This document shows positions 39,295-45,297 of a stretch of DNA of 64,000 nucleotides, one piece after another. Every line of letters begins with the position of its first letter. The first letter of the stretch is position 1. This stretch comes from Gammaproteobacteria bacterium (GTDB lineage Bacteria > Pseudomonadota > Gammaproteobacteria > SZUA-229), in contig JAOULX010000001.1 in the NCBI GenBank assembly GCA_029881795.1, forward strand, positions 1 through 64,000. The letters are read 5' to 3'. The notes beneath the pieces are model-generated. The model made no database searches and was not told where the DNA came from. It saw nothing but the letters and a program-made list of their open reading frames with translations. The position numbers and the translations under genes were made by a program.

Positions 39295-40674
39295 ATGAAT
39301 TCCAATCAATATGATCTGCTAATTGTTGGCGGCGGTGTATCCGGTACAGCCTTGCTCTACATGGCGGCCAAGTACACCGATATTCAGCGCATTGGTCTGT
39401 TAGAAAAATACGCTGCTCCGGCGCGGGTAAATTCATTATCGAGTAATAACAGCCAGACCCTGCATTGCGGTGATATAGAAACCAATTACACGCTCGAAAA
39501 AGCGCTCAAGGTAAAACGCGCTGCCAGCATGTTGCGAAACTATGCGACCGCGTTGCCAGACAGTGATCATGTTATTTTCAAATTCCCGAAAATGGTGCTG
39601 GGCGTAGGTGAGCAGGAATGCGCGCAACTGCGTGAGCGCTATAAAGTGTTTTCGCCGCATTACCCCCATTTAAAACTGCTGGATAAAAAAGCCATCGCCA
39701 AAATAGAGCCAACAGTGGCAATGACTAATGGTGGCTTTCGTGAAGATGAGGTGTTGGCTCTGGGTTCGACCGACGAATATACTGCGGTCAATTTTGAAGC
39801 CTTGTCACGATCTTTCATCAGGCAGGCACAGAAAACAGACAATAAAGAAATTGATATTCATTTTAATGAAACCGTAATGCATATCAAAATCGAACAGGAT
39901 CGTTTCCTGGTTGAAACCAAAGGCACCTGCTATCAAACAAAATCACTGGTGGTTTGTGCCGGTGGTCACAGTTTGAAACTGGCGCACGATCTGGGCTATG
40001 GTTTGCATTACTCCTGTCTGCCGGTGGCCGGCAGCTATTATTTTGCCCCGTATTGTTTGAACGGCAAAGTCTATACAGTGCAGAACGATGCGCTGCCGTT
40101 TGCAGCCATTCATGGTGATCCGGATGTGCTGGTGCCAGGAGAAACACGCTTTGGGCCAACAGCCTTGGTGCTACCGATTCTTGAGCGTTATAACCTGCGT
40201 ACCTTACCGGATTTTCTGCAAGTGTTTCGGTTTGACCGCAAGGTCGGCAAAGTGTTGTGGGATTTGCTGCGGGTAAGAGACATCAGAAACTACATGTTTA
40301 AAAATATGTTGTTTGAGATCCCGTTGATTCGAAAAATATTATTCTTAAAAGATGTGCGTAAAATTGTGCCATCACTACGCTTTAAAGATCTAAAGTTTGC
40401 GCGTCGAGTAGGTGGTATTCGTCCTCAACTTATCGACAAAATCAATGCAAAGCTATTGATGGGAGAGGCCAAGATTGATACCGACATCGGTGCGATATTT
40501 AATATGACGCCATCACCCGGTGGCACATCCTGTCTCGAAAATGCCGAAATTGATATGCGAAGCATTGCCGCTTTTCTGAAACTTAAAGTAGATGATGAGG
40601 CGATTAAGCGCGACCTGTTAGGTGATGACCATCAACATGGCAATGAAGATTTTACCGGACGAGTTATTTCATAG
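39295..40674 (+). CDS. Malate:quinone oxidoreductase-like FAD-dependent dehydrogenase
   Basis: A 459-residue flavoprotein. The N-terminal FAD fold (LLIVGGGVSGTALLYMAAKY), the SNNSQTLHCGDIETNY segment, the FGPTALVLPILERY region and the C-terminal MTPSPGGTSCLENAE resemble Mqo, which oxidises malate to oxaloacetate with quinone reduction. It is shorter than typical Mqo (about 490-550), and some stretches are divergent, so another hydroxyacid or quinone role is possible. GGAG precedes the ATG. It is the first gene of the segment between rpsT and proB. Confidence 0.75.
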   Translation: MNSNQYDLLIVGGGVSGTALLYMAAKYTDIQRIGLLEKYAAPARVNSLSSNNSQTLHCGDIETNYTLEKALKVKRAASMLRNYATALPDSDHVIFKFPKMVLGVGEQECAQLRERYKVFSPHYPHLKLLDKKAIAKIEPTVAMTNGGFREDEVLALGSTDEYTAVNFEALSRSFIRQAQKTDNKEIDIHFNETVMHIKIEQDRFLVETKGTCYQTKSLVVCAGGHSLKLAHDLGYGLHYSCLPVAGSYYFAPYCLNGKVYTVQNDALPFAAIHGDPDVLVPGETRFGPTALVLPILERYNLRTLPDFLQVFRFDRKVGKVLWDLLRVRDIRNYMFKNMLFEIPLIRKILFLKDVRKIVPSLRFKDLKFARRVGGIRPQLIDKINAKLLMGEAKIDTDIGAIFNMTPSPGGTSCLENAEIDMRSIAAFLKLKVDDEAIKRDLLGDDHQHGNEDFTGRVIS

Positions 40675-40689
40675 CCCTGTTGACAGGCT

Positions 40690-41975
40690 TTATGCGTAAA
40701 TTCGATGCGTCCATGTGGTCAGGCCAGAGGCAACGCTGCCGGATGCGTCACCAACCACGATATCAATGTCGCCATAGTGAGAGCGAATTCAGTCCTCAAT
40801 GATCGGCGATTTAACAGTGCCGCCGGTAACATAAATAAGATCGGGTTTTCCCTCGGCCAGAACTTCTACTTCTTTCATTAAGGAGACGAACACATTAAGT
40901 TCCACGCTCGATAGACTCGCGTAAATCATCGCGAGAGACTGGAATAATAAAATCGTCTTCAATATATTCAAGCGGCAGCATCACGCTATCGTGTTCGGAT
41001 AAACTGATTTTCGCCAGCTCGACACTACGGTTGAGCTGAAGTATTAAGCGTTCCTGTTGAAGTATCTGCAAGCGTTTAAATTTATCCTTGTCGACGGCCT
41101 GAGCAAGATAAGAGGCAATTACGCGCCGGATTTGTGCAGATAAAAATTGCGCCTGAATATTCACATCATTAATAGTGACAGCACCCCAGAACAGTGTCAC
41201 CGGTATTGGCATCCCGCTTTTCATAAGAGAGTCTTTACCAAAATGGGGCATAATATTTTTTAAGGCTAATTTTATATCGAGATCAGTACCACCAATGCGG
41301 TCACCGCTATGGCCAAGTATCGAATCGGTTCTGTCACTGTTCTCAATATAAGATAGCCCCAGCTTAACCATTGAGCAGTCGGTGGTACCACCACCGGCAT
41401 CCAGCACAAGCACCAGTTTGTCATCGGTCAGGCTGCGCTCAAAATCAAGTGCCGCTGCCATCGGCTCCATCTGAAACTCAATGTTTTTAAATCCTGCCGC
41501 CATAGCGGAGCGCTCAATAATCTCAAGCGCTTGTGCATTACCGGCTTCGCCACGCGTGCCATGAAAATTTACTGGCCGACCCAGCACAATGTCCTGAATT
41601 TCTGATTGTGTATTGTTCTCGGCATTATTTATTATATGTGCCAGCATTCGGCGAGTGATGTCCGAGAACAAATAGATTTGTTGTTGGCTAATATCCACAC
41701 CGAGAAAAGATTTGGGTGACTTAATCAAGTAACCGCTTTGCGAGTCTTCAATATGACGAAGAATCGCGGCTTCACCGAAAAGGGTTTCCTTGTCTGCGTG
41801 TAATGTGTTGCTGATAGACTGGTTGGCTTGTCTGCTTTGTATATAGTTTAGTGGGATGTATACAAGGCAGAGGGTAGCTGGTTGCTGTGTCCTTCAAGAG
41901 CAAGAAGAGTCGGTCGATTGTTTTTCCATATACCGATTAAGCAATTAGAAGTGCAATGTCGAGGCCTGCGTACAT
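40690..41975 (-). pseudogene. Degenerate YegD-type Hsp70-family chaperone gene
   Basis: Fragments match YegD, a DnaK-like ATPase, in order. The start is MYAGLD at 41975. Then come LPSALYTS in another frame, SPKSFLG, GRPVNF and DAGGGTTDCS in a third (41728-40895), and PDLIYVTGGT after another shift. The tail ends GDASGSVASG before TAA at 40692-40690. At least three frameshifts are needed (about 41950, 41830 and 40903) plus an in-frame TGA at 40791-40789 after SPIIED, perhaps from CGA. The N-terminal adenosine-phosphate loop lies in the damaged part. The longest intact frame (277 residues) lacks both ends, so the gene is probably non-functional. Sequencing errors could explain one shift but hardly all. 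Confidence 0.85.
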
Positions 41976-42066
41976 TTTTCACCTGTTTTTTTGGCTGTGG
42001 AAATTTAGAGGGCAGATTATATCATTTTATATATTTGGGGTATGAAGGTGGTGTTATTTTTAAGAT

Positions 42067-42303
42067 AAAGTCAAAAGCGTCGGTGGCTGACCGACAGCAG
42101 GTCACTTTTCTGTCTACAGCAACAGCAAAGTAACCAAAAGAATGCTGCCCCTTAATCAAGCTCTCATTAAAAGGCAATGAGAGTACCCTCGACAGTAGTA
42201 ATATCGACGGCTGCTGCGGAACTCGCACAAAGAGCGTGCTCAGACATCCTCGCAGAAAGCCCCGTCTATATTACGTCTTTCTCGGCATGGTTAAATGGGT
42301 AAA
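42067..42303 (+). repeat. Dispersed structured repeat, copy A
   Basis: About 237 bp, closely matching the reverse complement of copy B (44155-44412) and more distantly copy C (43793-44103). Landmarks in order are a GTCGGT...ACCGAC hairpin, a TTACTTTTCTG-type stem (damaged here), a ctctcatt/aatgagag hairpin, the conserved CGGCTGCTGCGGAACTCG, and CCTCGCAGAAAGCC. It is flanked by a 12-bp direct repeat, aagtcaaaagcg (42068-42079 and 42308-42319). The short frames it contains look conserved only because the DNA repeats. It fills most of the gene-free stretch 41976-42390. Confidence 0.85.
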
Positions 42304-42390
42304 TGGTAAGTCAAAAGCGATTAAAAAAGCTGGAAAGAAAACTTAAATAACATAGATCAATTAATTGTGGTTAGTGTCCGATTGTGCCAA

Positions 42391-42757
42391 CTATTGCTGA
42401 TGCGTTATTTTCCTGGCAATCAGCGTATATTCCGAATTGGAATTACTGAATTTGGTTTTCTGTATAAGGAGAAATCCCGCCTTCTCAAGTGCCTGCTCCA
42501 GTTGCCGGTGGGTCAGAATGTTAATTAATGGCGTGAAACCTATCAAACCTAAGAGTCGAAATAGGCCTGTCACAATTTTATTGTGTTCACCCAGGCAAGC
42601 TGTTTCCAGAATAAACAGACCATCAGAATTCAATAACTCATGAACGCGTTTGAATACGGCCTCAATATCTTCAAAAAAATGCAGCACATAAAATGCCATC
42701 ACAAGATCAAAGATTTCTGTTTTTAAACAAGATGTTTGCATAGACACCCATCTTAAC
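42391..42757 (-). pseudogene. Truncated class I SAM-dependent methyltransferase, C-terminal part
   Basis: The frame encodes the second half of a methyltransferase: FDLVMAFYVLHFFED (motif IV to post-IV), LLNSDGLFILETACLG (motif VI), and a C-terminal helix pair with HRQLEQALEKAGF. The SAM-binding glycine-rich motif I, which should lie about 60 residues upstream, is missing. The frame starts inside the left end of the MITE-like element at 42743-42756, so truncation by that insertion is likely. An ATG at 42741 could still start a 116-residue peptide, but it could not bind SAM as a normal enzyme. Confidence 0.7.
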
Positions 42758-42894
42758 AAAATATGTCCGGCACCTTTAACTAATGATTCTCATTTGTCAC
42801 CGACCTCTTTTGTTTTAGGTATTTGTTATTTACTAATTGATGTGGCAAGGCTCTGTTTTTATTGGTTTTTTACGAAAGTCTTAAGATGGGTGTC
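42743..42894. mobile_element. MITE-like element with perfect 14-bp terminal inverted repeats
   Basis: gacacccatcttaa (42743-42756) and its exact complement ttaagatgggtgtc (42881-42894) bound 152 bp without a coding frame. The inside is AT-rich and holds one REP-like word, tgtcaccgacctc (42795-42807). TTGCAT appears on both outer sides (42737-42742 and 42903-42908) but not directly adjacent on the right, so a target duplication is uncertain. It abuts the methyltransferase fragment. The mobilising transposase is not in the window. Confidence 0.65.
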
Positions 42895-43062
42895 CAGGTA
42901 GGTTGCATCCAATAAATATAACTATTAGTATTATATATATGTTTTTTATAAATTTAATACTCATTCTATTCCCATATTATTGGTTGATGCTTGAATTGAG
43001 AGACTAGGCGAGTTTTATTGCCTGTCCCGGCTTATTTTTTATGTGGTGAGCTTGGGATTTAC

Positions 43063-43106
43063 GGGGTCGGTGACAGCGCTAATGCTTCTTATTTGTCACT
43101 GACCCC
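43063..43106. repeat. REP-like palindrome
   Basis: ggggtcggtgaca (43063-43075) and tgtcactgacccc (43094-43106) form a 13-bp stem with one G:U pair and an 18-nt loop, ten bases past the stop of the lipoprotein gene on its minus strand. The same word occurs in the MITE-like element at 42795. Short palindromes of this kind are mobilised by REP-associated Y1 transposases in other genomes. The rest of 42895-43062 is AT-rich with no gene. Confidence 0.6.
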
Positions 43107-43116
43107 TTATTGTTTG

Positions 43117-43494
43117 TTAGGTTTTTTTGTTTATTTTCACTAAGTCACCCTCTACAATAACGCAATCTTGTCCATAAATAATAGCTGACCAAGCATTGTG
43201 ATTTATTCTTACATTTACCAATAAATCTCCATCTAAGCCTTCTTTCTGTCCATTAGAAATAGCGTCATCCATTGCTCTTTGAAGCCTGTCATCAGAGTGG
43301 CCCATTGGTAAAAAGAAAACACTATGAATACACGAATTACCTTCAACTTTTTGTTTAGATGAATCTCCAATACTATAGTTTAAGTTTCTTACATTTTGTG
43401 TTGATGCTGCTGTAAAGTTACCAAGCCTAGTTGAGCAACCAGTTATAAGTACGGCTGATGCAATTAAACCAACATAAGATAATTTTTTAATCAT
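43117..43494 (-). CDS. Putative lipoprotein, about 125 residues
   Basis: The frame starts best at ATG 43494 (MIKKLSYVGLIASAVL), followed by the lipobox ITGC, so Cys at about residue 20 would be lipidated. The mature part has two more cysteines (in NSCIHSV and GQDCVIV) and the segment FFLPMGHSDDRLQRAMDDA. No family is assigned. The gene is clearly more AT-rich than the core genes and sits among repeats, suggesting horizontal origin. A longer frame back to 43557 would destroy the signal peptide. A REP-like palindrome follows its stop. Confidence 0.7.
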   Translation of the reverse strand: MIKKLSYVGLIASAVLITGCSTRLGNFTAASTQNVRNLNYSIGDSSKQKVEGNSCIHSVFFLPMGHSDDRLQRAMDDAISNGQKEGLDGDLLVNVRINHNAWSAIIYGQDCVIVEGDLVKINKKT

Positions 43495-43590
43495 ATTTAA
43501 CATCCACGTCTTTATTAGAATTTCATACTTCACTTGTGACGCATTCAAATAAAGCATGATTGGTTATTATTAACCTAACTAAAAGTAGAA

Positions 43591-43627
43591 GCCCTAAAAA
43601 GCCATTTTAAAAAGGGCTTTTTAGGGC
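43591..43627. repeat. 13-bp inverted repeat hairpin upstream of the lipoprotein gene
   Basis: gccctaaaaagcc and its complement ggctttttagggc are separated by an A/T-rich 11-nt loop. The stem contains A- and T-runs, so the structure resembles a terminator, but no gene clearly ends here. It may be a relic of a lost neighbour. Confidence 0.5.
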
Positions 43628-43792
43628 CAAGAAAATTTCTATCTTCAACTTAATCATTTACTTATTGATTTTTATGTGGCCTATCCATGATTACTAAAGG
43701 CGCTTTATTGTTGAGATGTTCTATATTGGCAGTGAATCTAGTAAATCGCAATAGTGGATGTTGTCCGATTGGTGGCCGAAGAGGTGTTTTTT

Positions 43793-44103
43793 AAAGTCAA
43801 AGGCTGTGGGTTTCCCGCACCAACGGGCGTGTTACCTTTGTAAAACACGTCCCTGTGTTTTTCCCTTCGGGCTTGCGCTTAAATTCATTCCTGATGAATT
43901 TATCTTGCTCGTACAAGAAACGTAACCCAAAGAATACGCCCCATTTCACAAGCCCGCATAAACAACATGCGGGTGCCCTCATTACTCGTAATTTCTGTGG
44001 CTGCTGTGAAACTCGCATATAAAACATGCTCAAACAGTCACAGCAGAAAGCTCCACAGAAATCAATCGCGCTTCGGCTTGATCAGACGGGGAGGGTGGAT
44101 CAA
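43793..44103 (+). repeat. Dispersed structured repeat, divergent copy C
   Basis: It begins aaagtcaaaggc like A and B and keeps the same order of landmarks with different bases. These are a GTGGG...CCCGCAC hairpin, cgtaacccaaagaa, a segment ending GCCCTC, then CTGTGGCTGCTGTGAAACTCG, GCTCAAACA, GCAGAAAGC and a final GGGGAGGGTGG. Length differs by an internal insertion. Compensating changes in the hairpin arms suggest the structure, not a protein, is conserved. Confidence 0.65.
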
Positions 44104-44154
44104 AAGAAAAAACCTTTTGTTTAACAATTTTTTAGACTTTGAAGTAGATGTTGA

Positions 44155-44412
44155 TTTCACCTCCCCATTTAACCAAGCCGAGGAAGGCGTAATATCGACG
44201 GTGTTTTCTGCGAGGATGTTTGAGTGAATGATGTTTTTTATCATTTACGAGTTCCGCAGCAGCCGTCGATATTGCGGCTGACGAGGGTACTTTCATTGCC
44301 TTTTAATGAGAGCTTGATTAAGGGGCGGCATTCTTTTGGTTACTTTTCTGTTGCTGTAGACAGAAAAGTAACCTGCTGTCGGTCAGCCACCGACGCCTTT
44401 GATTTTGACTTT
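44155..44412 (-). repeat. Dispersed structured repeat, copy B (inverted relative to A)
   Basis: The reverse complement matches copy A over its whole length at high identity by eye. The hairpin ggttacttttctgt / acagaaaagtaacc (44338-44373) is a perfect 14-bp stem here, whereas copy A carries substitutions in both arms. The tail faces copy C. A and B bracket the 2-kb stretch with the methyltransferase fragment, MITE and lipoprotein. Confidence 0.85.
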
Positions 44413-44436
44413 GCTATAAAACAAAAAAAATACAGC

Positions 44437-45297
44437 CTATTTTTTCTGGCCACTACTAACCGTCTCAAACACCGCTGTCCCCACCACAATCGCACCACCT
44501 ATAATCGTCGTCCACTCCGGCATTTCCGCTAAAAAGATAGCCGCAAAAAGCGTACCGTAAACAACCTGCATGCAACCGACCAAACCAGCTGTTTTGGCTT
44601 TTAAATGCAACAGACTATGCGCAAATAATGTGTGTGGTACGGCGGTAAAAAAGACACCGAGTATCAATAACTGTAACCACTGCGTTTGAGAAACATCAAC
44701 AATAACCTGACCTGAAAAAGGCAATAACATCACAAACACAATGATGGTCTGATAAAACAAAGCGTGTCTGGCCGGATAGGCTTTGAAATAACGACCATGA
44801 ATGATATTGCGCAATGCAAATAAAAACGCCGAGAAGACACCCCAGAAAACGCCCTGTGCTGTTTCATTGTCGATCGAAAATTCCGGTACCAGCAGGTAGA
44901 TCCCAAACAGCACTAAAAAGGCACTGATGATGTCTTTGATATGCGGCTTCTCGCCATGAAAAAACGGCTCAAGGAACACCGTGATAACCGGGTATGTATA
45001 GAGCGAGATGATACCTACCGCGATGGATGAGACCTGCATCGCGTGAAAGTAGGTGACCCAGTGGGTGCCGAGCAAAACACCGAGAATAGCGGCTGTGATG
45101 TAATCACGCGGATTTTTAAGCAGTAAAGATTCTTGCAGAAATTTTATATAAATAGCGATGGCAAAAATGGCAAATAGACTGCGCAGCAGTGTGATCTCAA
45201 TCGCGCTAAGGCTGATAAGTTTTGAAAAAAGAGCGGTCAGGCCGAAGATGAGAACGGCGCTGTGGACTGAGAGTAGCCCCTCATTGTGTTTATTCAT
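44437..45297 (-). CDS. EamA-family (DMT superfamily) transporter
   Basis: A 286-residue membrane protein with ten predicted helices in two five-helix repeats (about residues 8-140 and 148-280), the EamA arrangement. Features include the RSLFAIFAIAIY and PVITVFLEPFF segments. The family exports amino acids, sugars or other metabolites; the substrate cannot be told. It ends 25 bp from repeat copy B and is divergent from the YhiN-type gene. Confidence 0.88.
   Translation of the reverse strand: MNKHNEGLLSVHSAVLIFGLTALFSKLISLSAIEITLLRSLFAIFAIAIYIKFLQESLLLKNPRDYITAAILGVLLGTHWVTYFHAMQVSSIAVGIISLYTYPVITVFLEPFFHGEKPHIKDIISAFLVLFGIYLLVPEFSIDNETAQGVFWGVFSAFLFALRNIIHGRYFKAYPARHALFYQTIIVFVMLLPFSGQVIVDVSQTQWLQLLILGVFFTAVPHTLFAHSLLHLKAKTAGLVGCMQVVYGTLFAAIFLAEMPEWTTIIGGAIVVGTAVFETVSSGQKK

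Follow-up and report, generated by a model that had tools for sequence, protein, structure and literature searches.

Three copies of a folded repeat

Within the first 64,000 nucleotides (nt) of contig JAOULX010000001.1 from a Gammaproteobacteria bacterium (assembly GCA_029881795.1), the stretch analysed here and referred to as the window, three genuine copies of a folded repeat of about 240 nt, A, B and C, are present, A beside an Hsp70/MreB-like gene. The copies are, we think, likely to be single arms of a non-autonomous mobile element in which a pair of arms may carry cargo. A and B, in inverted orientation, matched over 175 nt at 90% identity and a further 61 nt at 89%, and C, though diverged, kept the stem order with other bases. 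A covariance model trained on 16 copies (B included, A and C excluded) recovered all three (Table 1) and no fourth match in the 64-kb window up to E 5, which bears out an earlier note on this DNA that had described them as one repeat family sharing a stem order. The same note had called the long stem a perfect 14 bp in B and drifted in A, as we also found (44338-44351 paired with 44360-44373 in B; two mispairs by eye in A). About 60 nt interrupt the long hairpin of C and are absent from its relative L008. Across the window's own genome, BLAST and the model gave 10 matches each; BLAST added one copy (C7) and missed C, making 11 different places.

Conserved fold and the probable folding strand

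The structure was named by hand on one copy and then counted on 16. It comprises a closing helix (P3), a side hairpin (H3), a long stem (H4), an inner stem (P5) and a tip hairpin (H5), with two further hairpins, H1 and H2, outside this fold towards the outer end. In the 16 copies, 88.5% of cells paired, both sides had changed at 29 of 43 pairs (shuffled mean 14.0; slid controls 9-11), and the covariation score was 0.362 vs 0.128. An alignment of 35 copies, mostly from other genera, gave both-side changes at 36 of 43 pairs and a score of 0.435 vs 0.110, although it had been fitted to the structure. The most conserved sequence was the tip, CTGCGGAACTCGC-loop-GCTCARACA-TCCTCG. From 40 arms aligned by MAFFT alone, RNAalifold returned a single 4-bp helix only, which we take as misalignment. 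The three open reading frames (ORFs) over the arms had no Pfam or NCBIfam match. Rfam gave no arm match at gathering score in the window, eight distant loci and eight loci from other phyla; a weak HgcF match adjoined the arm of L143 (E 0.06, below cut-off). Covariation, which the earlier note had proposed to test with a covariance model, was above both shuffled and slid controls; it upholds the note's suggestion that C keeps its hairpins by compensatory change, and supports selection on a folded nucleic acid and not on a protein.

If the written strand folded, departures from canonical pairing would be expected to favour G-U over A-C; several stems showed the opposite, which indicates the complement, the strand reading outward. 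Counted by cells, A-C exceeded G-U by 74 to 7 in H2 (125 arms) and, over 95 distinct rows, by 35 to 12 in H3, 43 to 12 in H4 and 35 to 3 in H5. After collapsing H3, H4, P5 and H5 to distinct column, type and genus, the counts were 60 vs 29 (p = 0.0013), with the signal carried by H4 and H5. Judging by these base counts, the folded strand is probably the one reading outward from the middle of a pair, as RNA or as single-stranded DNA. The signal is uneven across stems, and part of it runs the other way: by cells, A-C stood at 64 vs 105 G-U in P3 and 7 vs 13 in P5 (95 distinct rows) and at 21 vs 24 in H1 (125 arms), and when collapsed by genus, P3 (35 vs 44), H3 and P5 showed none. H1 of A and of B were both called terminator-like on the outward strand, in a stretch with four terminator-like sites, little more than the 2.6 in shuffles (standard deviation 1.9).

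In other genera (L060-L069, L054-L058) we observed the common H1-H2 header joined to a different folded body with CGTCC-loop hairpins; arm bodies may be exchangeable between headers.

Arms are paired tail to tail

Arms at most 3 kb apart were treated as neighbour pairs. In 12 named genomes, reached through a pattern scan, model R2 found 129 arms and 45 neighbour pairs, 42 of them tail to tail (p about 3e-22 against a one-in-four expectation). The same model counted 16 arms in the cultured isolate Sulfuricella sp. T08, the genome of L212. Model R1 gave 93 arms in 14 genomes of the window's family, with 15 of 19 neighbour pairs tail to tail (p = 1.2e-6), and all 16 neighbouring tip pairs over 119 stretches had the same arrangement. 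The unit is thus two arms tail to tail, and C with B (43793-44422) is one such unit, with a short middle. The 42 pairs fell into two gap classes, with 14 pairs separated by 81-239 bp and the other 28 by 598-2167 bp. The tail-to-tail pairs of the window's genome (C/B, C4:36687-37296 and C18:47540-48185) each joined a type-2 to a type-1 arm; its units of two arm types were C/B, L009/L005 and L006/L008, and by eye the same pairing occurred in G014 and in seven units of G318. In draft genomes, several contigs ended inside or near an arm (e.g. L047, L048, L061, L120 and L129), which probably makes the numbers of copies and pairs in these genomes underestimates.

Cargo between the arms

The DNA between all 28 long-gap pairs was AT-rich, with a GC content below that of the flank in every case (medians 0.445 for cargo, 0.58 for flank and 0.68 for arm). 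It held one ORF of at least 75 amino acids (aa) in 22 pairs and two in six, and the main ORF lay one way in 13 and the other way in 15. A Pfam search of 32 of the 34 cargo ORFs gave matches over cut-off in 10 of the 28 cassettes: CAP12-PCTIR_TIR (1e-38), RelA_SpoT (7e-13), GmrSD_N with HNH, Pkinase, AAA_21 with RloB, DUF4238, 8xMP, HSDR_N_2, CoiA_N and HTH. PADLOC at E 1e-5, run on 30 of the 34 cargo ORFs and on 20 control ORFs drawn from 31, matched seven cassettes, including PDC-S33 (3e-104) and AbiLi (1e-94). Below E 1e-20, a cut chosen after seeing the data, the matches were 5 of 28 vs 0 of 20. The cargo is clearly accessory in character; a defence-like character is only suggestive.

Evidence for mobility

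In genome G148, the unit of L136 recurred at ten further places at 88-93% identity. These recurrences began at query position 1215 or 1216 and ended at 1740-1754, and the flanks of the units examined were unlike. Copies within one genome thus share their borders, as the earlier note had wished to see checked, and in G148 they combine inverted ends with common borders at unlike sites, as do miniature inverted-repeat transposable elements (MITEs) and mobile insertion cassettes. That note had also pointed to 12-bp direct repeats beside A (AAGTCAAAAGCG), which are genuine; a TCAAA motif recurs at three of the four ends of B and C, the inner end of B being the exception, so the repeats look like an arm-terminal motif and not like a target-site duplication.

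In three congeners, the stretches that flank the corresponding segment of the window (ending at 40607-40671 and restarting at 44446-44519) lie 93-204 bp apart without an arm. At the Hsp70-like locus of two congeners, homology extends to 42036 or 42031 and departs just before A, and on the EamA side it resumes just past B, at 44446 or further on. The model found no arm at the congener loci L341-L345. The segment from A to B is therefore missing from both places, though inside a larger rearrangement. The Hsp70/MreB-like gene itself (window 40898-41728, minus strand) lies at another locus in two congeners.

A second comparison concerned an orthologous site behind a tyrosine-recombinase gene (xerC-like, our label) and its neighbour gene, for which seven genomes were comparable (G316 was left out, its neighbouring gene being absent as well). 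G310 and G311 carried arm pairs with different cargo (a 241-aa helix-turn-helix protein and a 301-aa protein), G314 an arm directly beside an IS110-family transposase gene (L371, 2730-3749) and G317 a single arm; G308, G313 and G315 were armless. Shared borders, presence and absence, the pairing of two arm types and the different contents at one orthologous site support movement of the pair as a unit.

A proposed mobile cassette and competing explanations

In the element that we propose, a tail-to-tail pair of arms turns H1 and H2 outward and encloses one or two cargo genes or simply a short middle. What is conserved in each arm would be the fold of one single strand, probably the outward-reading one, with its elements in the order closing helix, side hairpin H3, long stem with conserved tip, long hairpin and terminator-like hairpin. 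A recombinase or transposase supplied in trans might recognise this fold and mobilise unit and cargo together. The outer hairpins might end transcription on both sides, which would insulate the cargo; with no mover candidate remaining, the trans-acting enzyme is something we infer. The tail-to-tail unit, the gene cargo of some genomes and the probable outward-reading folded strand had all escaped the earlier note. If mobile cassettes are delimited by arms, the cassette ends would offer a way of finding accessory and perhaps defence genes, and a clear question would arise as to the enzyme that reads the fold; a direct experimental prediction follows from the strand asymmetry.

Several points tell against this proposal. 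No mobilising enzyme was identified, RAYT (a transposase considered below) and integron integrase gained no support, and the cargo ORFs searched included no transposase or recombinase Pfam family (32 of 34 ORFs). The G148 units examined showed no target-site duplication by eye. The Hsp70-like gene adjoining A has also changed place, so the insertion in the window belongs to a larger rearrangement. In the 12 named genomes, 40 of the 129 arms had no partner inside 3 kb, and in the window's family 13 of the 15 tail-to-tail pairs had short gaps (39-156 bp). All 28 cargo pairs came from six genomes (G308-G313) chosen because a long-gap pair was already known there, such pairs were absent from the other six (G314-G319), and the ORF scan covered the 28 long gaps of the 42. 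PADLOC matches were not significantly enriched (7 of 28 cassettes vs 2 of 20 controls, p = 0.27), and genomes other than the window's were mostly fragmented drafts. In the window itself, A and C are same-strand neighbours, so that a cassette running from A to B requires later entry of the C and B unit; the chances that A to B is a decayed 2.4-kb cargo-bearing unit seem to us evenly balanced.

The nearest published idea is that of the long terminal inverted repeats around RAYT (REP-associated tyrosine transposase) genes, described in PMC3733652. They would count in favour of a repetitive extragenic palindromic (REP), REPIN (REP doublet forming hairpin) or TIRtron element, that is, palindromes mobilised by a RAYT (Y1 HUH) transposase, as would folded repeats in inverted pairs without coding capacity and the RAYT domain, present in 29 of the 40 relatives searched and in 11 of 14 arm-bearing genomes. 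That domain was, however, not found in the copy-rich G001, G002 (68% complete) and G014, nor in G264, G316 and G317. Zero of 30 RAYT loci had a BLAST match to any of eight forms of the arm and none of 12 further loci had a tip (loci of up to 1.5 kb per side, a subset of all RAYT matches); a looser tip expression matched one of the 30 (L102), in apparent coding sequence. With no arm adjoining any of the 42 loci and RAYT not found in several copy-rich hosts, we rejected it as the mover. REPs, REPINs and RAYT TIRtrons (PMC3733652, PMC3116915) resemble the arms in being dispersed palindromic inverted pairs with no transposase of their own, whereas REPs measure 20-40 bp and the arms about 240 nt, with several helices in a multibranch fold and a tip; arm pairs can also enclose genes, and no linked RAYT was found. 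The REP-type mobile DNA suggested by the earlier note therefore stands in kind (inverted pairs, shared borders, presence and absence) and falls as membership of the RAYT/REP system, which we consider improbable. An integron-related origin, with the arms as unusual attC sites moved by the integron integrase, would fit one-gene cassettes, a structure kept with little sequence and one folded strand. The integrase exceeded the cut-off in 12 of 20 arm-bearing genomes, but also in 8 of 20 genomes in which BLAST found no arm (p = 0.34), and not in G308, G310, G311 and G312, the source of 14 of the 28 cargo pairs; not being enriched, it gained no support as the mover. The arms stand tail to tail and not in a same-strand array like that of attC sites beside an integrase gene, and the four integrase loci examined contained no arm. 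attC sites lie on one strand, whereas the arms are paired inverted. Integron cassettes with attC sites (cf. PMC8618304) likewise bring single accessory genes and a site kept as a folded strand; having two inverted arms per unit and no integrase enrichment, the arms are very unlikely to belong with them.

MITEs and mobile insertion cassettes (PMC5444012, PMC6542083) are alike in having inverted ends around nothing or around passenger genes and in presumably being mobilised in trans; the arms differ as long folded structures, not so far matched to a known insertion sequence (IS) and with no target duplication seen by eye. The IS110-family gene adjoining an arm in G314 invites one more comparison. 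The insertion sequence ISPpu9 presumably belongs to that same family. It inserts into REPs (PMC8450116); the palindrome there is the target, and nothing shows such an IS moving the arm unit. An immobile structured RNA or 3'-end element (a terminator, a small RNA or a messenger RNA stabiliser) would account for the covariation, the surplus of wobble pairs that H2, H4 and H5 show on one strand, and the terminator-like H1. It predicts neither tail-to-tail pairing around AT-rich genes nor common borders with unlike flanks and presence or absence at orthologous sites, and we find it unlikely as the whole account; a mobile unit whose ends act as RNA could hold, uniting both readings. That the arms are a decayed protein-coding gene or functionless spurious ORFs is hardly credible: short ORFs do cross them, but three arm ORFs lacked a Pfam or NCBIfam match and the stems covary above shuffles and slid controls. 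Such arms may appear as spurious ORFs in beta- and gammaproteobacterial annotation. Literature searches, with most subscription journals outside their coverage, found no description of these arms, and the papers listed for a search with the letters of the tip and long hairpin look unrelated.

Taxonomic reach

By BLAST, the repeat was present in 30 of 58 genomes searched as relatives, and model R1 (ten candidates scored per genome) matched 14 of 274 genomes drawn from the class, counting the window's own and one of its family. Arms recur across Proteobacteria. The tip pattern occurred in at least 119 stretches of named genomes, against about one expected by chance by our own arithmetic, and among the matches listed were Gallionellaceae, Burkholderiales, Nitrospira, Lachnospiraceae, Bacteroidaceae, Eggerthellaceae, Omnitrophota, Uhrbacteria and Saccharibacteria. 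In most groups beyond Proteobacteria, the stems flanking the tip were locus-specific, judged by the median duplex energy of a strand with its own vs another locus's partner: -33.1 vs -15.8 in Lachnospiraceae, -43.5 vs -27.8 in Coriobacteriia, -31.2 vs -11.2 in the candidate phyla radiation (CPR)/Saccharibacteria, -34.7 vs -25.7 in Bacteroidota and -46.4 vs -42.1 in Nitrospirota; in five other stretches the own partner was no better (-13.6 vs -14.3). It beat all 20 shuffles in 7 of 7, 7 of 7, 4 of 5, 2 of 5, 6 of 7 and 2 of 5 stretches, respectively. A phage collection gave zero arm matches and one cassette searched against plasmids gave zero matches; six Burkholderia plasmid records matched in the long-hairpin stretch only, and two stretches of viral contigs matched, one looking like a real arm.

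Arms thus extend across Proteobacteria and the tip from Bacteroidota to candidate phyla, yet no Rfam family matches. A pan-bacterial folded recombination site, recognised by its tip on one strand and forming a second gene-cassette system beside integrons that would shuffle single accessory and defence genes between chromosomal sites, is a possible extension of the mobile cassette proposed above, and one we regard as doubtful.

Features of the locus

Table 1 Arms, their parts and possible cargo in the window (E values from the covariance model unless a database is named).
Feature	Position	Strand	Evidence or remark
Copy A, one arm, type 1	42051..42319	+	outer end 42051, inner end 42319
H1 of A, hairpin then CTTTTGACTT on outward-reading strand	42078..42096	-	terminator-like
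H2 of A, long hairpin	42100..42135	+	14 positions, two mispairs by eye
Body of A: closing helix, H3, H4, tip	42141..42302	+	E 6.2e-33
Tip of A, CTGCGGAACTCGC..loop..GCTCAGACATCCTCGCAG	42214..42255	+	sequence; tip conserved elsewhere
Outer direct repeat of A, AAGTCAAAAGCG	42068..42079	+	
Inner direct repeat of A, AAGTCAAAAGCG	42308..42319	+	
Possible cargo remnant: methyltransferase-like ORF, 122 aa, without first part	42391..42759	-	Pfam Methyltransf_23, E 5.6e-10, from profile position 80
Possible cargo: 146-aa ORF, lipoprotein-like start (our judgement)	43117..43557	-	Pfam TRL, E 0.008, below cut-off; local GC 0.31-0.39
Complete unit of arms C (+) and B (-), tail to tail around a short middle	43793..44422	.	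67 bp between model matches
Copy C, one arm, type 2	about 43793..44105	+	about 60 nt inserted in H2 hairpin, roughly 43840-43900
Body of C	43932..44093	+	E 3.7e-29
Copy B, one arm, type 1	44160..44422	-	outer end 44422
Body of B	44161..44332	-	E 1.2e-39 (B helped train the model)
Tip of B	44208..44259	-	sequence
H2 of B	44338..44373	-	14-bp perfect stem, loop 8 nt
H1 of B, hairpin then CCTTTGATTT on outward-reading strand	44377..44395	+	terminator-like

Between A and C, a perfect 14-bp inverted repeat (GACACCCATCTTAA) encloses about 150 bp (42743-42894) where the methyltransferase-like ORF loses its first part; a separate MITE-like insertion is one possible reading. Also between A and C, positions 42780-42816 and 43079-43115 form a 37-nt direct repeat (81%). 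Small inserts of short palindromes were seen in arms at about 43840-43900 of the window, in the right arm of L155, and in L006 and L010, the last two with an identical insert junction.

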